Positions 514 through 27,544 of a DNA stretch of 37,491 nucleotides are shown here, piece after piece. This stretch comes from Polyangia bacterium. GTDB lineage: Bacteria; Myxococcota_A; Polyangia; Fen-1088. The notes under the pieces are model-generated. The model had not been told where the DNA came from, did no database searches, and saw only the letters and a list, made by a program, of their open reading frames with translations. Every line of letters starts with the position of its first letter. The first letter of the stretch is position 1. The DNA is taken from positions 1 to 37,491 of the forward strand of contig DATATI010000073.1 of the NCBI GenBank assembly GCA_036268875.1, in the 5' to 3' direction. Made by a program: the position numbers and the translations under genes.

Positions 514-3500
514 GTGAATGATTCATCTCTGTGTGAGCGGCTGGTTCGCAGGGGGTTGGCTCTGCTGCTCGTGGCGGCGGCGTGTAGCGGCGGACCGCCC
601 GGCACGATGCCGGTTCGGCGCGGGGATCCCACCTGTCTGGCCGCGGCGGCACAGCGCAAGACGCTCGGCGCCGCGTGTGGATGCGACTCGGATTGCGACA
701 GCGGATTCTGCGTCGACGGATTTTGCTGTGCATCGGCCTGTCAGGACGTATGCAAGGCCTGCAACGTCCCGGGCATGATGGGAACCTGCACCTTTGCTCC
801 GTCCGGCATCAAACCTCGCGACCCGAACACCTGCAAGACGTCCGACGCCAGCACCTGCGGGCTTGACGGCACCTGCGACGGCAGCGGCGCCTGCCGCCAG
901 TACCCCACCGGCACGATCTGCACGCCGGGCACCTGCGATCACGCCTCGGTCACCGGGATCAATGTCTGCGATGGCACGGGCCGTTGCGTGCCCGGCAGCC
1001 TGAAGATCTGCGTCCCCTACAGTTGCAACCAGGCGCAGAAGGACTGCGCTTCCGCCTGCACCACCAGCGCCGACTGCTCGACTGGCCATTCCTGCGTCGG
1101 CGGAAGCTGCGGCCCGAAGCCGACCGGCGCCGTCTGCACCAAGGACGCAGAGTGCGAGCTTGGGCACTGCTTCGATGGCGTCTGCTGCGAATCTGCCTGC
1201 AACGGTGCCTGCGTCTCCTGCAACCTGGTCGGCCACCAAGGGACGTGCTGGCCGATCGCCGCCGGCATCCTCGATCCGCGCGGGATCTGCAAGGACAGCG
1301 GCCCCGCCAGTTGTGGCCAGACGGGAAGCTGTGACGGCGAGGGGAGCTGCGATCTCTACTCGCGCGGCACCGTCTGTTTGCCGCCCATCTGTTCGGGCGA
1401 TCGTCTGCTTAGCGCCGCCACCTGCGACGGCAACGGGACCTGCGGCGAATCCGACGTCAATGATTGCCCGCCCTATCGCTGCATTAACGGCGCTTGCAAG
1501 GCTCCGTGCACGCAGGACAGCGACTGCGTGGCCGGTCACGTCTGCGTCAACCAAAGCTGCGGTCCCCGGCAACTGGGCCAGGACTGCAAGGCGAACACGG
1601 ACTGCGCGTCGAACTTCTGCGTGGACGGCGTCTGCTGCGAGAATGCCTGCCAGGGAGCCTGCCGGAGTTGCGCCCTGGCGTCGTCGAAGGGCAGTTGCAC
1701 GAACCTGGCCGCGAACGCGCTGGATTCGCGCAACGTTTGCAAGGACCAGGGCGCCAATAGCTGCGGCGCCAACGGCAAGTGCAACGGGGGGGGCGGCTGC
1801 CAGAAGTACGCGAAGAACACCCAGTGCGCGGGGGAGGGCTGCGCGAACAACGTCTATTCGCCGCCGTCGACGTGCGACGGCAACGGCGCTTGCATCTTCG
1901 CCGGGACGCGGTCGTGCGCGCCCTTCGCCTGCAACGGCGCGAAGTGCTTCGACCGCTGCACGCAGGATCAGAACTGCGTGCCGCCGACCATCTGCAACGG
2001 TAACTCGTGCGGCAAGAAGAACCCCGGCGCCACGTGCAACAACAACACGGAGTGCCTCTCCAACGTCTGCGCCCAGGGCGTCTGCTGCTCGTCCCCCTGC
2101 GATGGCTTATGCAAGTCGTGCGCGCTCGCCAATTCGCGCGGCACCTGCACCAACCTGCCGGCGGGTTCGCCCGACATCACCAACACCTGCATCAACCAGG
2201 GCGCTCCCACCTGCGGCAGCAACGGCAAGTGCGAAGGGGGCGGCTGCCAGAAGTATGCGGCTGGCACGCCGTGCAAGGCTGCGACCTGCCCGACCGGGAC
2301 CGCCAATTTCATTCCGGGCGCGGCCTGCGATGGCGTGGGCAACTGCGTGACGCCAGCCTCGATGTCGTGCGTCCCATACAAGTGCGGCACGGCCGCTTGC
2401 AGGGCCACCTGTACCGCGGACGCCGACTGCTCGGGCGGGAACGTGTGCACGAACGGGTCCTGCGGCCTCGGGCCGCCGGGCGCGCGGTGCTCGAGCGGCA
2501 TGGAATGCGCCAGCGGCAACTGCGCCCAGGGCGTCTGCTGCAACAGCGCCTGCAACACAGGGTGCGTCTCCTGCAACCTTCAGGGCAACGCCGGGACCTG
2601 CAAGCCGGTCGCGATCAACACCCCCGACGCGCGCTGCATGGACAACGGCGCCGCTAGCTGCGGCACCGACGGCAACTGCGACGGCAATGGCGCCTGCCAG
2701 AAATACCACGCCGGCACTGAATGCATGGCCGCGTCATGTGCGAAGGGGAGCTCGACGCTGAACCCGGCCAAGCAGTGCGACGGCAACGGCGCCTGCCAGC
2801 CGACCGGAATGACGAGGTCATGTGGGGCCTTCCTTTGCGACGCCAATGGCGACGCCTGCCTGACGAATTGCCAGGGCGATGCCGACTGCGTGAAGCCTAA
2901 CCTCTGCAACCAAGACAACAACCGGTGCGGCTCGCAGGCGCCTGCCGGGCAGACGTGCGCCAGGACCGATGAGTGCCAGGCCGGATTGTCTTGTGTCGAT
3001 GGTGTGTGCTGCACGACCAACGGTTGCCCGACGTGCCAGGCCTGCAACCTCTCCGGCAATGGCCAGTGTGCCAACGTTCACGCCAGCGACCCCGACCCGC
3101 ACGGCGGCTGCCTGGCCGAGAACCCTCTGGTCTGCGGGCTGACCGGCAAGTGCGACGGCGCTGGCAAATGCGCGAACGTCATGGCCCGTGCCTCCTGCGG
3201 CGCGGGTTGCATGCCCGGCTCCTGCAACGGCACGGGGATGTGCACGGGGCAGATGCCGATCAACTGCGATGACGGCGATCCTTGCACGGCGGACGCCTGC
3301 GGGTCCGACGGCAAGTGCGTTCACACGCTGGCCGCCGACGGCACGGGCTGCGACGACGGCAACGCCTGCACGCAAACGGACGCCTGCCAGGCTGGAAAAT
3401 GCGTGGGCGCCAATCCGGTCCAGTGCTCGGGCGCATCGGCCTGCACCTCGGCCGGCACCTGCAACCCGAAGAACGGCATGTGTACGGGCGGAGCGCCCAA

Positions 3501-4557
3501 GCCCCCCGGAACACCGTGCGATGACGGGCGCAAGTGCACGACCGGCGACGTGTGCGACGGCAAAGGAACCTGCGGCGGAACCCAGATGATCTGCCCACCG
3601 GTCGCGGACGCCTGCCACACGGCGGGCACTTGCTCCGAGACCACCGGCGCCTGCCCCGCTCCGACCGTCGTATCAGACGGCACGCCCTGCAACGACAACA
3701 ACGCCTGCACGAAGACCGACAGCTGCCAGGGCGGCATCTGCACGGGGACCAGCCCGGTCCAGTGCTCGGGCGTCGCGGCCTGCGCCTCCGCCGGCACCTG
3801 CGATCCCAAGACTGGCGTGTGTTCGGGTGGCGCGCCCAAGCCTGCCGGAACCGCGTGCGATGACGGCCTCAAGTGCACGACTGGCGACGTGTGCGACGGA
3901 AAAGGAACCTGCGGCGGCACGCTGGTGACCTGCTCCGGTCCCGTGGACGCCTGCCACCTAGCGGGCGTCTGCGACGCGACCACGGGCGCCTGCCTGTCGG
4001 CCCCCGCCAGGGACGGCTCACCTTGCAACGACGGCAACGCCTGCACGCAGACCGACACCTGCCAGGGTGGCAAGTGCGTGGGAACCAAGCCGGTCTCTTG
4101 CGCGACGCCCGATATGTGCCACGTAGCCGCAACCTGCAACCCGACCACCGGTATGTGCGCGAGCGCGGTCGCTCCCGACGGAACCAACTGCGACGACGGC
4201 AATCTCTGCACGGCCGGCGACAAGTGCCTGGGCGGCACCTGCATCGGAGGAACGCCCAAGGTCTGCCCGGCCTCCGACCAGTGCCACGTGGCGGGAACCT
4301 GCAACGCGAAGACGGGCATGTGCACGAATCCGGAGGCTCCCAAAGGAACGCCCTGCAACGACGGCAATGTCTGCACGACCGACGACAAATGCCAGGGCGG
4401 CAGCTGCAGCGGAACAGCGAAGACCTGCGCAGCGCCCGACAAGTGCCATATGCCGGGGAGTTGCGATCCGTCGACCGGCGTATGCACGAATCCGAACGCT
4501 CCCGACGGAACCAAATGCGGCGGCAAACAGACCTGCACCCTCGGCGTATGCATTTGA
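514..4557 (+). CDS. Giant Cys-rich repeat lipoprotein
   Basis: A secreted, probably surface-anchored lipoprotein of about 1347 residues. The GTG at 514 is chosen because it gives a short positively charged segment, a hydrophobic stretch (LALLLVAAAC) and a lipobox Cys at residue 24; the frame stays open upstream but that part does not look like protein. The first two thirds holds six repeats of about 150 residues, each opening with C-x-x-D-x-x-C...C-x-x-G-V-C-C and continuing with a C-x-S/A-C-N/A segment. The last third holds about eight copies of a CDDGNxCTxxDxCxxGxC unit, a DxDG-type, possibly calcium-binding, disulfide-rich repeat common in myxobacterial exported proteins. No catalytic domain is seen. 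It may act as an adhesin or matrix protein. Oddity: an ATG at 500 with a GGGGTAGG SD-like sequence opens a five-codon frame that would join this gene if the CCC run at 511-513 had one more C. Confidence 0.85.
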   Translation: MNDSSLCERLVRRGLALLLVAAACSGGPPGTMPVRRGDPTCLAAAAQRKTLGAACGCDSDCDSGFCVDGFCCASACQDVCKACNVPGMMGTCTFAPSGIKPRDPNTCKTSDASTCGLDGTCDGSGACRQYPTGTICTPGTCDHASVTGINVCDGTGRCVPGSLKICVPYSCNQAQKDCASACTTSADCSTGHSCVGGSCGPKPTGAVCTKDAECELGHCFDGVCCESACNGACVSCNLVGHQGTCWPIAAGILDPRGICKDSGPASCGQTGSCDGEGSCDLYSRGTVCLPPICSGDRLLSAATCDGNGTCGESDVNDCPPYRCINGACKAPCTQDSDCVAGHVCVNQSCGPRQLGQDCKANTDCASNFCVDGVCCENACQGACRSCALASSKGSCTNLAANALDSRNVCKDQGANSCGANGKCNGGGGCQKYAKNTQCAGEGCANNVYSPPSTCDGNGACIFAGTRSCAPFACNGAKCFDRCTQDQNCVPPTICNGNSCGKKNPGATCNNNTECLSNVCAQGVCCSSPCDGLCKSCALANSRGTCTNLPAGSPDITNTCINQGAPTCGSNGKCEGGGCQKYAAGTPCKAATCPTGTANFIPGAACDGVGNCVTPASMSCVPYKCGTAACRATCTADADCSGGNVCTNGSCGLGPPGARCSSGMECASGNCAQGVCCNSACNTGCVSCNLQGNAGTCKPVAINTPDARCMDNGAASCGTDGNCDGNGACQKYHAGTECMAASCAKGSSTLNPAKQCDGNGACQPTGMTRSCGAFLCDANGDACLTNCQGDADCVKPNLCNQDNNRCGSQAPAGQTCARTDECQAGLSCVDGVCCTTNGCPTCQACNLSGNGQCANVHASDPDPHGGCLAENPLVCGLTGKCDGAGKCANVMARASCGAGCMPGSCNGTGMCTGQMPINCDDGDPCTADACGSDGKCVHTLAADGTGCDDGNACTQTDACQAGKCVGANPVQCSGASACTSAGTCNPKNGMCTGGAPKPPGTPCDDGRKCTTGDVCDGKGTCGGTQMICPPVADACHTAGTCSETTGACPAPTVVSDGTPCNDNNACTKTDSCQGGICTGTSPVQCSGVAACASAGTCDPKTGVCSGGAPKPAGTACDDGLKCTTGDVCDGKGTCGGTLVTCSGPVDACHLAGVCDATTGACLSAPARDGSPCNDGNACTQTDTCQGGKCVGTKPVSCATPDMCHVAATCNPTTGMCASAVAPDGTNCDDGNLCTAGDKCLGGTCIGGTPKVCPASDQCHVAGTCNAKTGMCTNPEAPKGTPCNDGNVCTTDDKCQGGSCSGTAKTCAAPDKCHMPGSCDPSTGVCTNPNAPDGTKCGGKQTCTLGVCI

Positions 4558-20949: not shown

Positions 20950-20992
20950 TGCGGCCGCCCCTCGGCGGTCGCACCGGCCACGCACTTTTTTT
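20950..20992 (+). terminator. Hairpin and T-run after the DoxX-like gene
   Basis: A 10-bp stem, TGCGGCCGCC/GGCGGTCGCA with one G-T wobble and a CCTC loop (20950-20973), is followed about 12 nt later by seven Ts (20986-20992). The offset T-run makes this an imperfect intrinsic terminator, but the position just after the DoxX stop is suitable. Confidence 0.4.
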
Positions 20993-21068
20993 GCAAGAAA
21001 CCGGCGCCGGCGCATCGACAAGGGCAGGCAGCGGTGGTCGCTGCCCGTCCACATCGCCGGAGGCCCGA

Positions 21069-21677
21069 ATGCACGCTCAACTGCCATGCGCCACCTCAGA
21101 TCTCCTGTCACGGATGGTCGCTCTTCGTCCCGTCTTGCTGCGCAGCGCCTGTCAGACCGTGGGCCTCGCTGATGCGGAGGACCTGGTCCAGGGCACCATC
21201 GAGCGCTGCCTGACTCATCTTGATCGCTTTCGCCCTGACACCAACCTGCTGGCATGGCTGCGGCGGATCATGTCCAATCTGATGGTCGATGGCTGGCGAC
21301 GCCAGGGCCGGGTGCTGTTTGATGATCAGGCGGAACACGATCTGGTCGCCCCGGAACCGTATCAACCGCCGCCCTGGGGAGAGCTGGACATAGAAGACGT
21401 CCGGAAAGTGGCCGCCGAGCTGCCGGAGAAGTTCCGTGTCGTGTTCAAGCTGCACTATTTCGACGGTCTGACGTATGCCTCGATCGGTGCCCGCCTGAAC
21501 ATGCAACCGAACACCGTCGGCACGCGCCTCCTGCGCGCGCGCCGCCAGGTTCACGCCCGGTTGCTGGCGGCGCGGACGCACCAGGAGGCGTCCACGGCGC
21601 CTGAGCCGATCGTCCCGGGACCAACCGCGCCACTGGACCGAGCGCCACGGCGGCGATTGGGGCTTTCTGTCATTTAG
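21069..21677 (+). CDS. ECF-type RNA polymerase sigma factor
   Basis: A 202-residue sigma-70-family factor with only regions 2 and 4. Region 2 reads ADAEDLVQGTIERCL...NLLAWLRRIMSNLMVDGWRR, and region 4 reads ELPEKFRVVFKLHYFDGLTYASIGARLNM followed by NTVGTRLLRARRQV. The ATG at 21069 is preceded by GGAGG with 5-nt spacing, which sets the start; the frame is open upstream without an SD. It has a C-terminal tail of about 35 residues rich in Pro and Thr. No anti-sigma factor is adjacent in the same direction. Its 3' end overlaps the convergent lipoprotein gene by 8 nt. Confidence 0.93.
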   Translation: MHAQLPCATSDLLSRMVALRPVLLRSACQTVGLADAEDLVQGTIERCLTHLDRFRPDTNLLAWLRRIMSNLMVDGWRRQGRVLFDDQAEHDLVAPEPYQPPPWGELDIEDVRKVAAELPEKFRVVFKLHYFDGLTYASIGARLNMQPNTVGTRLLRARRQVHARLLAARTHQEASTAPEPIVPGPTAPLDRAPRRRLGLSVI

Positions 21678-22728
21678 AGTCAGCGGAAAAAGGCAGGCCA
21701 AAACACTCGTCAGTGCAAGTGTTCGGCGCCAAGAACTGACACAGTCCAGGGTCGACCAAGATATCGAGGATGTGACCGAATCTGCAGATAATGTAATCGT
21801 CGCCAAAACTGCGCGCGGGATACATTTGCATATCTGCTTCCCGTTGGTCGCTGCACCTCTTCAAACAGTCGTTGAACTCTGGAAAATAGGAAGGGCACAG
21901 CTTTGTTCCGGTGCGACAGTAGACTCCGCACACATCGCCACAGTACCCAAGGCCGAATACTTCGGCGTTCGGGCAGTCATTGCTGCTCACTGCGGCCTGC
22001 CTCGCCCAGGCGGTTCGGCATTCAAGCGTATCGCCGCTCTGCGCGCCCGTATCCCAATCAAGCGTGGCGCAGGCCAGGTTGCAACGGTCTGGAGACCCAT
22101 ACGATTCTGGACAATTTTGGGTCATCAGCGCGCAGTACATTTCGCAACCGGCAGGAGGCGTGGGCAGGGGCGAAGGCAAGGGCCGCGCGCTGGCGTCGAG
22201 GTTGTCCACACACGGGACGGGCGCCCAGACCTCCGCGTCCGCTTCGGCGTCGAACGCGTCCCGGGATCCATCCATGCCGGCGTCCGCGACTGGACTGTCC
22301 ATCGGCGCGCACTGTCCAATCTGATCATCAGGGAAGGGCGACGCGCAGGCAATCAGATCGACCGTCACCACCGGCGGTCCGCCGTCCACCAGTTGCCGGC
22401 TGCCGTCGACGTTAAAGTCGTCGCTCTGTGCCACCACGTTCATTGCCTGAATGGCTTGAAGCCGCAACTTATCGCTCGTGCCCCGGCCCAGCATCAGGCC
22501 GGCGGCATGCATCGATAGGCTTTTCATCTCACCGACGTCCCACTCATGGACGAGCTTGGTCTCCGTGGCGGACAACACGCGTAAGAGACGCAGGTGATCG
22601 TATCTGACCGCAGATGGGATGGAGATGGTGAGATTCACCTGAACCGAAGGCGCCTGACAAGAGCCCGTGGCCAGCAGAACCAACGCCAAGGCCAGGCAGC
22701 CATCCCAACGCGCGATCTTGTCGATCAT
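21670..22728 (-). CDS. Cys-rich putative lipoprotein
   Basis: A 352-residue exported protein with an N-terminal hydrophobic segment ending LLATGSC (lipidation candidate Cys24, somewhat weak lipobox). Residues about 28-150 may form a beta-rich domain, followed by an Asp/Ala-rich linker (DSPVADAGMDGSRDAFDAEADAE) and a C-terminal domain (about 195-345) with roughly 16 cysteines, including CEMYCALMTQNC and CGDVCGVYC. This pattern of Asp/Gly linker plus Cys-rich tail recurs in myxobacterial surface lipoproteins, but I do not recognise a named family. It converges on and overlaps the ECF sigma gene by 8 nt, and is divergent from the next sigma gene across 166 nt. Confidence 0.8.
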   Translation of the reverse strand: MIDKIARWDGCLALALVLLATGSCQAPSVQVNLTISIPSAVRYDHLRLLRVLSATETKLVHEWDVGEMKSLSMHAAGLMLGRGTSDKLRLQAIQAMNVVAQSDDFNVDGSRQLVDGGPPVVTVDLIACASPFPDDQIGQCAPMDSPVADAGMDGSRDAFDAEADAEVWAPVPCVDNLDASARPLPSPLPTPPAGCEMYCALMTQNCPESYGSPDRCNLACATLDWDTGAQSGDTLECRTAWARQAAVSSNDCPNAEVFGLGYCGDVCGVYCRTGTKLCPSYFPEFNDCLKRCSDQREADMQMYPARSFGDDYIICRFGHILDILVDPGLCQFLAPNTCTDECFGLPFSADSK

Positions 22729-22894
22729 TTTTGTGGACCATCCGGCTCGAGCCTTGTGATCTGCAGCGCTCTTGATAGGGAACGCGGGCCGCGAAAACTA
22801 TTCCAGAGTGGCAGAGGTTCGGAAATATCCGGTATTTGTTTTTTTGTGTGCAAGATTCGCCGCGCCAATCATCCATATAGCGGAGGAGGGGCGA

Positions 22895-23833
22895 ATGACC
22901 GACGTCGGTTCCGTGTTCCTGAGCGAGCTGCGCGACCGCCACGTCAGCCTTGCCCCCTTCGTCGATCCGGTGGCGCTGCAGGCGGGGCTGGTCGAGATTC
23001 TGGGTGCTGCCCACGCGGTTGGGGCGGAGGCGTGGGCGCCGATCCAGCTGGGACGCGAGGAGTTCGTGCGTCACCTGGCCGGATGCGTGGCGCGCACGGC
23101 GAACCCGGGCGACGCTGCCGCCGCGCTGAAGACCTTGCACCTGACCGACCTGTACCTGGCCTGCGCGGCCGGCCTGGGCGTGGCGCAGGCGCGCGAGCGA
23201 TTCGTCAGCCAGTTTCTGCTGCCGATCGAAAGCGCGGTCCGCGCGATCGGCAACAGCGCAGGTTTCGTCGAGGACGTGCGCCAGGAGATTCACGAACGAT
23301 TGCTGTTGCCGTCCAGCGGACCGCCGAAGATCTTGCAGTACGGAGGGCGCGCCGCCCTGGCGTCGTGGGTGGGCGTGGCGGCGCGGCGAGCGGCGCTGCA
23401 GGTCCTCCGCGAAAGGGGGGCCCGACAGCGCCTGGCCCAGGACACCGCGGACGAAGAGCTGGGCGTTCAGCTGGATCCCGAGCTGGAGTACGTCAAGAAC
23501 CGTTACCGGGAGGCGTTCAAGGTTGCGGTGAGCGGCGCCATCGCCGCGCTGTCCACCCGCGAGCGAATGATCCTGCGTCTCCATTGCGTCGGGGGGCTGT
23601 CGCTGGCGCGCATCGCCACCATGCTGGCGGTGGACGAATCCACGGTTTCGCGCTGGGAGAAACGGGCGCGCGAAACCATCTTCGGTGGCACCAACGTCCG
23701 GCTGAGCGAGAACCTGGGTGTGGCACACGACGATCTGCCGTCGTTGGTTCGGCTGGTCAGCAGTCAGCTGCAGCTCAGCGTGGCCCGTTTGCTGGCCAGT
23801 GACGCCGAAGGTGCGCGCCCTCGATCAAAGTGA
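22895..23833 (+). CDS. Sigma-70-like factor, Myxococcales family
   Basis: A 312-residue protein with the layout of the Myxococcales-type sigma-70 factors: a poorly conserved N-terminal half, a region-2-like helix (FVEDVRQEIHERLLLP, ALASWVGVAARRAALQVLRER) and a clear region 4 (LSTRERMILRLHCVGGLSLARIATMLAVDESTVSRWEKRARE). The start at 22895 is set by a strong GGAGGAGGGG 4 nt upstream; the frame is open before it. In myxobacteria these factors often neighbour a Ser/Thr kinase, as here: the kinase gene is convergent and the coding ends overlap by 9 nt. A signalling pair is inferred from that recurrent pairing, not shown by the sequence. Confidence 0.87.
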   Translation: MTDVGSVFLSELRDRHVSLAPFVDPVALQAGLVEILGAAHAVGAEAWAPIQLGREEFVRHLAGCVARTANPGDAAAALKTLHLTDLYLACAAGLGVAQARERFVSQFLLPIESAVRAIGNSAGFVEDVRQEIHERLLLPSSGPPKILQYGGRAALASWVGVAARRAALQVLRERGARQRLAQDTADEELGVQLDPELEYVKNRYREAFKVAVSGAIAALSTRERMILRLHCVGGLSLARIATMLAVDESTVSRWEKRARETIFGGTNVRLSENLGVAHDDLPSLVRLVSSQLQLSVARLLASDAEGARPRSK

Positions 23834-25543
23834 ATCGACCAGATCGTGGGGAACGACCGCCGGCTTGCCGGGGTGAGACGACGGGTCCGGTGCGGCGACG
23901 GTCGTCACCTGATTCGCCGCGGGCAGCGCAGGGGGCGGCCCGGCTAATGGATCAACCTCCGTCGGTCGCGCGGCACCTTGGGGAGGATGGGCGCTGGACA
24001 ACTTCGGGCGCGCTGGGATGACGAGCCGTTTCGAGGGCACGCCGGCGACTGTCGGCGGCAGATCGGCATGCGCCGCGTGGTCTCGCCGGGCCGGGACCGG
24101 GGCGATCGCCAGAGGTGCCGGTGAATCAATCACCGCCTCGCCGGTCAGCCGAGTCGGCGGCGAACCGGGGGTGGAGGCCGGATCGATCGACGAGACGTGG
24201 ATGCCGGCTGAGCGTCGCGCGAGCCACCCGGACAGGACCAAGACCGCCAAGACGACGACCGCGACGGTCGGCACGGCGAAGGACCGCCGGCGGCGTCGAG
24301 GCGGAGTGACGGCGGCAAGCACCGCGGGCGCAGCAACCGCCATCTCCACCGCCTCGACGAACTGCCGAACGGACTGATGACGCTCTGACGGCTCTTTGCT
24401 GAAGGCACGCTCGATCGCCGAGGCCACACCGGCGGGAACGTCGGGTCGGAAGGTGGAAAGAAGGGGCGGCGTCTGATAGGCGATGGCGTGCAAGACATCT
24501 GTCAAGCGTTGGTCAGGGAAGGGCCGCCGGCCCGTCAGCATCTCGAAAAGCAGCACCGCCAGGGCGTACTGATCGGTCGCCGCAGAGAGCTTGTGGTTTT
24601 GCGCCAGCGCTTGCTCGGGCGCCATGTAAAGCGGCGTTCCGATCAAGGCATCTTCATGCGAGTAGGCCACCGAGGTGACCAGCTCGGCGCTGCGCTTTGA
24701 CAGTCCAAAGTCCACCAGCTTGATCCGATCCCCCGTCGTTCCCTCCCCCTCGCCTTGCACGACAAAGACATTCCCCGGCTTCAGATCGCGGTGAATGATC
24801 CCGCGGCTGTGGGTGGCCGCCAGCGCGGACGCGATCTGATTGATGATCGCCAGCGCCCGCGCCAGAGGCAGCGGCCCTTCGCGCTTGATGAGATCGGCCA
24901 GATCGCCGCCGGCCAGAAATTCCATTGCCAGGAACCACTGCCCATCGGGCGTCCGATTGAAGTCGAACACCTGGACGATATTGGGATGAGCAAGGGCCGA
25001 AGTGATCTGGGCTTCGCGCCTGAAACGGGACAGCAACTCTTCGTTGCGGGAAATGTCCGCTCTCAGCACCTTGACGGCGTAGCGGCCCGCCAGCCGTACG
25101 TTTCGCACCTCGTAGACCTCGCCCATTCCGCCTCGGCCCAGAAGGCGCACGACCTCGTAGGTGTCATTGAGGCGTGCGCCAGGGCTCAAGCTCCCGGGCC
25201 TGTTTCCCGGCGGCGCGGGCGTCGTTGTGGGCGGCGCCAGTGCCGGCGCGGGGAGCTCAAGTCTGGCGGCGCCGGCATGGTGCTCGGTGTCGACAGTCGC
25301 TGGCTTGATCGGAAAATCGGCGTCAGCGAGGCCGATCAGGCGGGCGCACCAAGGGCATTCGTGCAGGTGTTCTTCGACCGCCGGCGCATCAATCCGCATT
25401 CGCCCGGCCAGGAGATCCGCAACCGTGTCCTCGTCGAGGCAATCCAAACCGTCCTCCTGCTGTTGCGACAGTATCACGGAGGACGCCGACGATCGTGAAT
25501 GGGTTCGTGGCTGGCTGTCAGTGAAGGCGGACTTGCGAGCCAT
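23825..25543 (-). CDS. Membrane Ser/Thr protein kinase with N-terminal zinc-finger-like domain
   Basis: A Hanks-type kinase of about 572 residues. An N-terminal domain CLDEDTVADLLAG...HLHECPWC (His59, Cys63, Cys66) resembles the anti-sigma zinc-finger module seen on myxobacterial kinases. The kinase domain spans about 130-400: GRGGMGEV, VKVL (Lys158), HRDLKPGN (Asp253), DFG (Asp278) and GTPLYMAPEQ, so it should be active. A basic stretch (RRRRR) precedes one transmembrane helix (about 423-441), and a Pro/Ala-rich periplasmic tail without a recognised domain follows. Start uncertain: ATGs at 25561, 25558 and 25543 are in frame and none has a clear SD. 25543 is given because it avoids overlap with the divergent gene; a later GTG at 25477 is possible. 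Confidence 0.9.
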   Translation of the reverse strand: MARKSAFTDSQPRTHSRSSASSVILSQQQEDGLDCLDEDTVADLLAGRMRIDAPAVEEHLHECPWCARLIGLADADFPIKPATVDTEHHAGAARLELPAPALAPPTTTPAPPGNRPGSLSPGARLNDTYEVVRLLGRGGMGEVYEVRNVRLAGRYAVKVLRADISRNEELLSRFRREAQITSALAHPNIVQVFDFNRTPDGQWFLAMEFLAGGDLADLIKREGPLPLARALAIINQIASALAATHSRGIIHRDLKPGNVFVVQGEGEGTTGDRIKLVDFGLSKRSAELVTSVAYSHEDALIGTPLYMAPEQALAQNHKLSAATDQYALAVLLFEMLTGRRPFPDQRLTDVLHAIAYQTPPLLSTFRPDVPAGVASAIERAFSKEPSERHQSVRQFVEAVEMAVAAPAVLAAVTPPRRRRRSFAVPTVAVVVLAVLVLSGWLARRSAGIHVSSIDPASTPGSPPTRLTGEAVIDSPAPLAIAPVPARRDHAAHADLPPTVAGVPSKRLVIPARPKLSSAHPPQGAARPTEVDPLAGPPPALPAANQVTTVAAPDPSSHPGKPAVVPHDLVDSL

Positions 25544-25546
25544 CAA

Positions 25547-26242
25547 ATGAAAGTCCATCATGCGGTCCGCAGCGGAAAAGGGGGGCCACTGTCGCCAAAA
25601 ATTGTCCTGTTGGTCATGGCGCTGCAACAGGCGACGCCGGCTCGGTTCCAGGCGCAAGCGCACCTGCGTCTGGGGAACGAGGCGTTTGTGTCCGGGCGGG
25701 TGGCGGAGGCCATCACCGAGTACGAAACCGCGGCGCAGCTGTTCCCCAGCCCCGGTGTCTACTACAACCTGGGACAGGCCTACGAAGTTGGCGAGCGGCC
25801 GAAGGACGCGCTGGCGGCTTATGAGTCCTTCGTTGCCGGGTCGACCAGCGGAACGGGTGACATCACCAATGCCCCGTTGACGGAAGAGCAGCGCCATCGA
25901 CTGGATGACGCTCGACAGAGGATCACGGTGTTGCGTGGCGGGCTTGGCCCGTCGGCCGCCGCCCCGTCGCCCAGCGCCACCAGCTTGCCGGCCTCGCAGA
26001 GCCAGGGTGTCGTTCAAAAGCCGCTGACGCTGGCGGCGCGGGACCCGTCTTCTACGCGGCCGGCGAACCCGAGAATCGATGTGGCCCCGGCCGCCGCGAG
26101 CGTGAACCCTTCCCGCAAGACCTGGTGGCTGGTGGGCATCGGCGCCGTGGTTGTGGCCGGTGCGGTGACGGCCCTGATCATTGTCCGCTCACGGCACCAG
26201 AGCTGTACGGGAAGCCCCGATCTGTCGTGTGTCTCTTTGTAG
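25547..26242 (+). CDS. TPR-type protein with C-terminal membrane anchor
   Basis: A protein of about 231 residues. A hydrophobic N-terminal stretch (PKIVLLVMAL) may be a weak export signal. One or two TPR-like helical pairs follow (HLRLGNEAFVSGRVAEAITEYETAAQLFPSPGVYYNLGQAYEVG), then a Pro/Ser/Ala-rich low-complexity region, then a transmembrane helix (WWLVGIGAVVVAGAVTALIIV) near the C-terminus. Similar TPR-linker-helix proteins sit beside kinase genes in myxobacteria and may relay envelope signals (inference). It is transcribed divergently from the kinase with essentially no gap, so their promoters must lie inside one another's 5' coding regions unless both start later (an ATG at 25616 is available here). 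Confidence 0.72.
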   Translation: MKVHHAVRSGKGGPLSPKIVLLVMALQQATPARFQAQAHLRLGNEAFVSGRVAEAITEYETAAQLFPSPGVYYNLGQAYEVGERPKDALAAYESFVAGSTSGTGDITNAPLTEEQRHRLDDARQRITVLRGGLGPSAAAPSPSATSLPASQSQGVVQKPLTLAARDPSSTRPANPRIDVAPAAASVNPSRKTWWLVGIGAVVVAGAVTALIIVRSRHQSCTGSPDLSCVSL

Positions 26243-26293
26243 CGCGATCGAATAATTGCGTCGCTCCCCGTTTTATTCGCACAGGGGGCAAAA

Positions 26294-27544
26294 TTGAATC
26301 CACGTCGCGCAATAACCGTATTCGGTCTGGCCGTGTTCATTGCGGCCGGCTGTTCTCAATCGAACGCTCCGTCCACGACGCCGGGAAAGGCCGGTGCGGC
26401 CGGTGCGGGCGGCGACTCGGGCACCGACGGATCAGCCGCCGTTTCTGACCAGGCGCTGCCGGAGCAAAAGATCGGGCCGCCAAAGACGTTGGTCGATTTC
26501 AGCAGCAGGACCGTAGCCAGCGAGATCGGTTCGATCGATGCCTCCGATGATTCGGGCGATTCCGACGGCGCCGATGACTCCGTGACAGAGCCGGCGGTGA
26601 GCGACGGTGGCGTTGACTCCGCAGCAGAAGCGGCGCCCGACGACGACGGGAATGGTTCGCCTGATGACGGATCGCCTTCCGAAGTGGACGGCCCGGCCCC
26701 GTCGTGCCCGGGGCCAGACTGCCCCTTGGCTCTGGCCGCCGGCCATTTGCAGTTGTGGTTGCGCGGCGACCAAGGGGTGTCCTGCGACGGCGGACGGGTC
26801 ACGCGATGGACCGATCTGTCCGGGCGCCACAACGACGCCTCGCCGCCGGCGGGACAATGGGGGCCGATCTGTGGTGCCAGCGCGGGACAGCTCAATGGGC
26901 GTGACGTGATCATGTTTCCGCGCGGTACCGAACCCGACGCGGTCGCCGCTGAACATCTGGAAGTCGACTTCCGAACCCTCGCCCAAAGTTCTTTGACGAT
27001 CGCGGTGGTCGAAAAACGAGACGACGCTCCGGTCACGGCCAGTTGGATGATCGGGACGCCGCTGCCATTCCCGACGGCAATCTTTTGCGATGACAGTGCC
27101 AGCGTCAATCAAACCCTGGGAATGGTTCTGGGCTATCTGACGCCGGACCATCTAATCGGCTCGTTTTGGGGCGACTCTTGTCAGGGGCCGGGCGAGTCAG
27201 TGTCGCCACCCCCGGTCAGCAAGCCCAGCACCACCATCATGATCTTCCAGCCCAGCACCGGCATTTCGCTGTTCATCAATGGCAAGCAAGGGGAGGGCGA
27301 CGGAAGCGGCTTCATCAAAGAAGACGGCCTGGGGCCGTTGGACACCAACACGGCCGACGCCCACCCCGCGGCGTTTATGGGTCGGGGCCTCATCGGCCGT
27401 GGTTTTGAGGCGACGGAGAGTGGGGTCGACTCTCGATATAAAGGCCTGATCGCCGAAGTTATTATTTACAACGCACCAATGGTCACATCGGATCGCAAGC
27501 TCCTGGAGGCTTATCTCACCGATCGCTGGAATACCGATCAATGA
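26294..27544 (+). CDS. Lipoprotein with LamG-like jellyroll domain
   Basis: A 416-residue exported lipoprotein starting at TTG 26294. An AGGGGG SD lies about 6 nt upstream and no ATG or GTG precedes the signal. The lipobox is IAAGC (Cys20). Residues about 25-135 are an acidic, Ser/Asp/Gly-rich linker. The C-terminal domain (about 145-415) begins LQLWLRGDQGV and includes VTRWTDLSGRHNDA, ISLFINGKQGEGDG, and YKGLIAEVIIYNAPM...RKLLEAYLTDRW, which is the pattern of a concanavalin/LamG-like carbohydrate- or surface-binding jellyroll. The binding partner is unknown. It stands alone between the TPR gene and a pair of small secreted proteins. Confidence 0.85.
   Translation: MNPRRAITVFGLAVFIAAGCSQSNAPSTTPGKAGAAGAGGDSGTDGSAAVSDQALPEQKIGPPKTLVDFSSRTVASEIGSIDASDDSGDSDGADDSVTEPAVSDGGVDSAAEAAPDDDGNGSPDDGSPSEVDGPAPSCPGPDCPLALAAGHLQLWLRGDQGVSCDGGRVTRWTDLSGRHNDASPPAGQWGPICGASAGQLNGRDVIMFPRGTEPDAVAAEHLEVDFRTLAQSSLTIAVVEKRDDAPVTASWMIGTPLPFPTAIFCDDSASVNQTLGMVLGYLTPDHLIGSFWGDSCQGPGESVSPPPVSKPSTTIMIFQPSTGISLFINGKQGEGDGSGFIKEDGLGPLDTNTADAHPAAFMGRGLIGRGFEATESGVDSRYKGLIAEVIIYNAPMVTSDRKLLEAYLTDRWNTDQ

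Follow-up and report, generated by a model that had tools for sequence, protein, structure and literature searches.

The 37,491-nucleotide (nt) stretch of a Polyangia bacterium genome analyzed here (contig DATATI010000073.1; hereafter the window) carries a gene for a sigma factor of the gmx1 family (22895..23833, + strand, 312 amino acids), which converges on the gene of a membrane Ser/Thr kinase (23825..25477, − strand). The sigma factor scored 208.2 bits against Sig-70_gmx1 (TIGR03001), for which the curated cut-off is 154.6, and is thus a member of that family. With stop codons at 23831-23833 (sigma) and 23825-23827 (kinase), the two genes share a 9-nt 3′ overlap (23825..23833). The putative kinase start, GTG 25477, is favored by the relatives, whose kinases begin a few residues ahead of the first Cys of the module described below; a longer open reading frame (ORF) opens at ATG 25561, and the residues of the kinase are numbered from there. 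From its N-terminus the kinase consists of a zinc anti-sigma-like module (25304..25447, − strand; profile match of 55.4 bits), a Pro-rich linker, the catalytic domain (24377..25159, − strand), a hydrophobic segment (24218..24274, − strand; residues 430-448) that is a probable transmembrane helix (19-residue Kyte-Doolittle mean of 2.4), and a Pro-rich tail running from this segment to the stop. The catalytic domain, matching Pfam Pkinase at 167.3 bits and carrying HRDLKPGN and DFG, is that of a Hanks-type Ser/Thr kinase. Thus, ORFs and profiles confirmed the layout described in the original prediction, which had been made from the DNA alone: the genes of a sigma factor and a membrane Ser/Thr kinase converge and overlap by 9 nt at their 3′ ends, and the kinase has an N-terminal HxxxCxxC.

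The N-terminus of the window kinase has the pattern C-x23-H-x3-C-x2-C, in which HLHECPWC spans residues 65-72. The putative zinc ligands are Cys41 (25439-25441), His65 (25367-25369), Cys69 (25355-25357), and Cys72 (25346-25348), all on the − strand. Among the 111 module-bearing kinases found near gmx1 sigma genes in the survey reported below, HxxxCxxC is present in 110, and a further ligand was found in 109 of these (Cys in 106 and His in 3; one kinase was off the expected spacing), so that the Cys/His residues are conserved in kinase homologues, as the original prediction demanded. The further ligand lies 25 residues ahead of the His in 99 of the 110 kinases and 24 residues ahead in the window. 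When a profile of the module was compared with PDB, it matched RslA (E 2.9e-7), DdvA (1.3e-4), ChrR (0.007), and RsiW (0.15), while the matches from E 0.34 onward were collagen chains and clearly due to chance. The DdvA matches include a 991-residue CHAT-domain chain (E 0.005), which is a precedent for joining a domain of this kind to an effector. With the Pfam profile zf-HC2 (PF13490), the window module scored 15.2 bits, below the gathering cut-off of 22.2, and 40 of the 48 members of the module profile were matched at E ≤ 0.1. An AlphaFold2 model of the module plus linker (102 residues) reached a mean predicted local distance difference test score (pLDDT) of 74.7, with about 85 to 92 over residues 11-50; it shows three helices followed by coil, with Hx3Cx2C spanning helices 2 and 3. 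RslA, ChrR, RsiW, and DdvA likewise have Hx3Cx2C across helices 2 and 3 together with a further Cys/His ligand. These sequence comparisons identify the N-terminus of the kinase as a zinc module of anti-sigma-like type.

Two sets of gmx1 loci were used to survey the co-occurrence of this sigma family with zinc-module kinases. The first came from a TIGR03001 profile search of 39 genomes, which yielded 61 matches at E ≤ 1e-20 in 17 genomes (the window's own included), and flanks were fetched for 60 of them. The second comprised the best 80 of 143 loci from a pattern search of public genomes and is biased, both by this cap and because the subset used for the search (A3) selects sigma factors with VHRAT[AI]ARW. 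After 6 duplicates were removed from 142 sigma ORFs, 136 distinct loci were retained, 75 of which were contributed by the second set. The sigma alignment (A2) included 50 of the 61 sigma factors, the module alignment (A4) included 32 modules, and the module profile (A1) was built from 48, of which 47 were found via HxxxCxxC ahead of kinase domains in gmx1 loci and 1 via a first profile. Counts on the first 61 loci, and the conservation of three ligands there, hold partly by construction; the independent evidence comes from the 75 loci of the second set, from genomes devoid of gmx1, and, within the first set, from the first Cys/His ligand. A zinc-module kinase was present nearby, within the fetched stretches, at 111 of the 136 loci, and at 63 of the 75 that took no part in building the module model. 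Because of the kinship among these loci, they do not count as independent events. The survey nevertheless shows that the pairing of sigma and kinase anticipated from the window is conserved across the family.

The 111 pairs occur in every orientation: 63 are divergent, 18 are convergent, and 30 are tandem (16 kinase-then-sigma and 14 sigma-then-kinase). The original prediction had read the overlapping convergent ends in the window as a control device. Since gene orientation varies freely among the paired loci, the overlap was rejected as a regulator and is taken as incidental; what is kept is the linkage, not the overlap. In 61 divergent pairs, the stretch from module to sigma domain is mostly 120 to 290 bp including coding sequence, so the starts lie close together. 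Dyad and k-mer counts on the stretches of 61 of the 63 divergent pairs yielded only GC-rich words and no promoter motif; coding sequence is part of these stretches, and the control, mononucleotide shuffles, is a weak one.

Over the 111 pairs, distances correlated at 0.428 between sigma and module, 0.322 between sigma and kinase domain, and 0.317 between module and kinase domain, and none of 2,000 shuffles reached any of these values. The partial correlation of sigma and module given the kinase was 0.363, versus 0.209 for module and kinase given the sigma. The sigma-module value exceeded the module-kinase value in 97.2% of 1,000 subsamples and, when all regions were equalized to 49 columns, in 56 of 60 draws. 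Within genome G030, the correlation was 0.34 for sigma and module (13 pairs; p 0.005) and −0.10 for module and kinase; within G026, it was 0.71 (7 pairs; p 0.001) and 0.45, respectively. As all pairs in each of these comparisons come from one genome, the correlation there is not due to species history. Physical closeness could contribute in divergent pairs. Where the module is encoded at the end of the kinase gene that points away from the sigma gene, the outcome was mixed: convergent pairs gave 0.88 for sigma-module versus 0.82 for module-kinase, and kinase-then-sigma pairs gave the reverse order, as detailed below. These data suggested that the module diverges in step with the sigma somewhat more closely than it does with the kinase domain of its own polypeptide. 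By sigma region, the module correlated at 0.39 with the C-terminal helix, 0.38 with sigma4, 0.33 with sigma2, and 0.21 with the N-terminal extension. With the kinase domain, too, the sigma region that correlated best was the C-terminal helix (0.33), and the regional values lean weakly toward a sigma4-directed contact.

The window sigma factor consists of a helical N-terminal extension (residues ~1-80), sigma2 (~81-180), sigma4 (~205-262), and a conserved C-terminal helix (~263-308). Its predicted structure (pLDDT 90.3; predicted template modeling score 0.71) aligned with sigma-E region 2 (4lup_A) over residues 83-180 (Z 11.4, root mean square deviation 2.4, 91 residues aligned) and with sigma-E region 4 (2h27_D) over residues 203-272 (Z 7.3, root mean square deviation 2.2, 69 aligned). 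As modeled, the protein carries both domains of an extracytoplasmic function (ECF) sigma factor, supplemented by residues 1-80 and the C-terminal helix. The extension, encoded by 22895-23134, is a confidently modeled helical element ahead of sigma2; the VIA-align 2 rows for this sigma factor cover mainly residues 82-280 and make no statement on folds that resemble residues 1-80. The C-terminal helix beyond sigma4 (residues 263-308) is encoded by 23681-23818 and contains conserved Ser residues.

The kinase might activate the sigma factor by phosphorylating it directly, with the zinc module serving only as a docking site through which the sigma is brought to the kinase. Such gene pairs are known from the ECF43 group, where PknS acts on EcfK in Xanthomonas citri and PknT on EcfP in Vibrio parahaemolyticus (PMC13147305, PMC8999054), and gmx1 loci resemble them in combining an ECF-type sigma gene with the neighboring gene of a membrane Hanks-type kinase. 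The module kinases look catalytically active (HRDxxPxN in 103 and a DFG-like motif in 108 of the 111), and Ser/Thr residues are conserved in the sigma, namely, T250 (T in 130/136), S283 (S in 112/136), S290 (S in 120/136), and S295 (S in 109/136). However, according to PMC8999054, EcfP-type sigma factors lack the acidic residues of region 2.2 and gain the charge through phosphorylation, and ECF43 sigma factors have no acidic region-2.2 motif. The gmx1 family keeps the acids: the second position is acidic in all 134 ungapped sigma factors, both positions are acidic in 103 of 136, the window has E-D, and Ser or Thr occurs at either position in only 6 of 136, so uncharged Ser/Thr-bearing residues do not replace the acids as they do in ECF43. 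The sequence relatives of the module are, moreover, inhibitors. One locus (L065) encodes, beside its gmx1 sigma, a protein with the zinc module followed by an nSTAND1 NTPase (2420-4342, − strand) and no kinase match at E ≤ 0.001; as module and sigma are kept there without a recognizable kinase, it fits the module as the sigma contact. Activation by direct phosphorylation thus appears rather unlikely. Because the region-2.2 acids are kept, unlike in phosphorylation-activated sigma factors, gmx1 sigma factors appear competent for core polymerase binding and would thus have to be held by an inhibitor, for which the zinc module is a candidate.

The module could instead serve the kinase itself, in dimerization or in metal or redox sensing, and be linked to gmx1 through shared regulation without any contact. 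Redox sensing is a known capacity of zinc anti-sigma domains (PMC7406223), and some strong modules are found away from gmx1 sigma genes, as detailed below. Yet strong modules are almost confined to gmx1 neighborhoods, and module distances track the sigma more than the kinase overall and specifically within single genomes. The window's own genome (6.15 Mb) has 103 Pkinase matches, estimated to represent roughly 95 kinases since some match twice, and only two strong module matches, both in kinases (the window kinase and one on contig C72) and both at 55 bits, the next match being at 32 bits. Its weaker module matches on contigs C10, C34, and C91 adjoin sigma matches, as ordinary anti-sigma genes would. 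G006 has 3 strong modules against 58 kinase matches and G019 has 1 against 111, all of them within 10 kb of a gmx1 sigma. Strong modules (44 bits or more) were counted in 12 of the 16 other gmx1-bearing relatives, where 47 of 60 lay within 10 kb of a gmx1 sigma. Among the relatives without gmx1, of which 14 of 22 were examined, three module matches were found at E ≤ 1e-7: a kinase (G003, 43.8 bits) and two anti-sigma-like proteins, one encoded in overlap with the ORF of an ECF sigma (G005, 48.7 bits) and the other next to a sigma ORF (G032, 40 bits). Fisher tests on this distribution are partly circular and were not relied on. We consider a role confined to the kinase improbable.

A further alternative is that the window module acts on another sigma factor and that gmx1 is a bystander at this locus. 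A second ECF sigma ORF (20991-21677, + strand) lies about 1.2 kb upstream of the gmx1 sigma gene with no recognized anti-sigma gene beside it, and the genome has a paralogous module kinase with no neighboring sigma gene. Against this, the window holds its genome's only gmx1 sigma above the cut-off, and pairing with gmx1 is the rule of the family, which makes action on another sigma highly improbable. The closest relative of the window sigma is that of locus L057, at 38.5% identity; hence, there is no close orthologue of the window pair among the loci fetched. At E ≤ 1e-40, the gmx1 family was found in 13 of 143 genomes drawn evenly across the phylum (the window's included, with at most 17 candidates scored per genome), and G030 alone holds 18 gmx1 sigma factors.

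With moderate confidence, based on the sequence patterns above, we propose that the window encodes a receptor kinase containing a zinc anti-sigma module of its own, which silences a dedicated gmx1 sigma factor whose release is probably controlled by kinase activity. The cytoplasmic N-terminus would carry a minimal three-helix zinc anti-sigma module, which would bind and silence the sigma, most likely via sigma4 and the sigma C-terminal helix. The middle of the protein would be an active Ser/Thr kinase, and an exchangeable sensor would form the C-terminal part, which in many members follows a membrane segment. Upon firing of the sensor, kinase activity would release the sigma to RNA polymerase, probably through autophosphorylation of the module or linker and otherwise through phosphorylation of the bound sigma. 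Zinc occupancy, sigma binding, silencing, and release by phosphorylation are steps that we infer. The suggestion of the original prediction that the kinase N-terminus could contact a sigma factor is backed as far as sequence allows, and a direct contact of module and sigma would be the best reading.

Several observations weigh against this proposal. First, the module model lacks the fourth helix of class I anti-sigma domains (ASDIs). According to PMC7406223, helix 1 of such domains binds sigma4 and helix 4 binds sigma2; as helix 4 is missing from the model, a sigma4-directed contact would be likelier here. Hx3Cx2C across helices 2 and 3 and linkage of the gene to its sigma (111/136 loci) are ASDI features, and the module was filed as anti-sigma-like, not as an ASDI, because of the missing helix. 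It also differs from RslA, ChrR, RsiW, and DdvA in its fusion to a kinase and its length of about 50 residues. Second, a Foldseek search with the module model returned a single, meaningless match (E 8.4). Third, no conserved Ser/Thr acceptor was shown in the module or linker, and the membrane-segment threshold was passed by only 61 of the 111 kinase ORFs, some of which are cut by contig ends. Fourth, the excess of the sigma-module over the module-kinase correlation is modest, with a 95% range (−0.001 to 0.219) that touches zero, and the 16 kinase-then-sigma pairs showed the reverse order (0.61 versus 0.76). Fifth, 18 of the 136 sigma factors have neither kinase nor module nearby (7 of them close to contig ends) and 4 have a kinase without the module; at 3 other loci, the ORF that holds the module did not score as a kinase. 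Of the 18, L078 has a module kinase at a distance of 7.8 kb, and three (L058, L064, and L069) showed no kinase or module in wider flanks either. Finally, 13 of the 60 strong modules have no gmx1 sigma within 10 kb; 2 of these have a weak sigma match in an adjoining ORF, 3 have one several kb off, and 6 are near contig ends, the groups overlapping. The paralogous module kinase of the window's own genome also lacks an adjoining gmx1 sigma. It belongs to a cluster on contig C72 (L134:4198-8395) that encodes a Cys-rich protein, the zinc-module kinase, and an overlapping tetratricopeptide repeat (TPR) membrane protein. No sigma gene was detected beside it, either in a six-frame reading of the sequence that separates the flanking genes or in a profile search of the 13.5 kb fetched, and this kinase may be an orphan or use the sigma encoded in the window.

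Kinase-linked ECF sigma factors are known in print as phosphorylation activated, and in ECF59, ECF61, ECF62, ECF217, and ECF283, the sigma genes are usually accompanied by a kinase gene and not by an anti-sigma gene (PMC8999054), a trait shared with gmx1. The control proposed for gmx1 resembles that of RshA-SigH in Mycobacterium tuberculosis, where PknB frees the sigma by phosphorylating the zinc anti-sigma RshA (PMC8999054). Unlike in that system, in which PknB and RshA are separate proteins, the gmx1-linked arrangement suggests a sensor, kinase, and sigma inhibitor merged in one protein. PknS of the ECF43 group also has C-terminal periplasmic TPRs, as well as an N-terminal segment of 83 residues (PMC13147305), and the word zinc does not occur in that paper. 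What appears to be new here, as far as can be read from sequence, is kinase-linked ECF control, itself of a known kind, with an anti-sigma-type module built into the kinase. In the literature searched, neither gmx1 nor the pairing of a sigma factor with a kinase that has a zinc module was found described, and an earlier mention in print is possible. Whether the family represents a distinct Myxococcota one-protein layout, in which sensing, phosphorylation, and sigma release reside in one polypeptide that has multiplied within single genomes as matched pairs with its sigma and exchanged its C-terminal sensors, is a question on which we are evenly balanced.

If the proposal is true, a large myxobacterial family joins in one protein two controls of ECF sigma factors that are otherwise separate. 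To our knowledge, few targets are known for myxobacterial Ser/Thr kinases, and the zinc-module pairing could give targets to part of this very large repertoire. The many paralogous pairs per genome make partner specificity directly testable, and sigma-kinase pairs could serve as insulated parts in engineered circuits.

The C-terminal parts of the module kinases are diverse. Of six scanned, five carry recognizable domains, namely, TPR (L060), nSTAND1 plus WD40 (L061), C-type lectin (L068), PD40 (L075), and phosphonate binding (L066), and the sixth (L057) gave no domain match in this part. In the window, a gene for a TPR protein with a C-terminal hydrophobic segment (25547..26242, + strand; putative start at 25547) is divergent from the kinase 5′ end, as had been predicted. 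The further claim that there is no room for separate promoters was not established, as it depends on the start codons. The TPR ORF opens at ATG 25499 (25499-26242, + strand), and third-position GC is low in its frame before ~25560, which favors a start at ATG 25547 or later; third-position GC did not separate the alternative kinase starts. With the kinase starting at GTG 25477 and the TPR gene at ATG 25547 or later, as favored, the two genes may lie about 70 bp or more apart. A TPR ORF like that of the window or its paralogue was found at 12 of the 111 module-kinase loci, at 8 of which it is the next gene after the kinase and has the same orientation, an order also seen in the paralogous cluster on contig C72. 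The divergent arrangement is thus not the rule among the 12 loci, and the position downstream makes the TPR protein a plausible partner of the kinase in the window's branch.

A consensus scan of 22700-26400 gave one promoter-like match, inside the kinase gene (shuffle mean, 0.3), and one terminator-like match (shuffle mean, 2.5), neither of which was used. The second ECF sigma ORF of the window also converges on a neighbor, a Cys-rich lipoprotein-like gene (21670-22728, − strand), with an 8-nt overlap.

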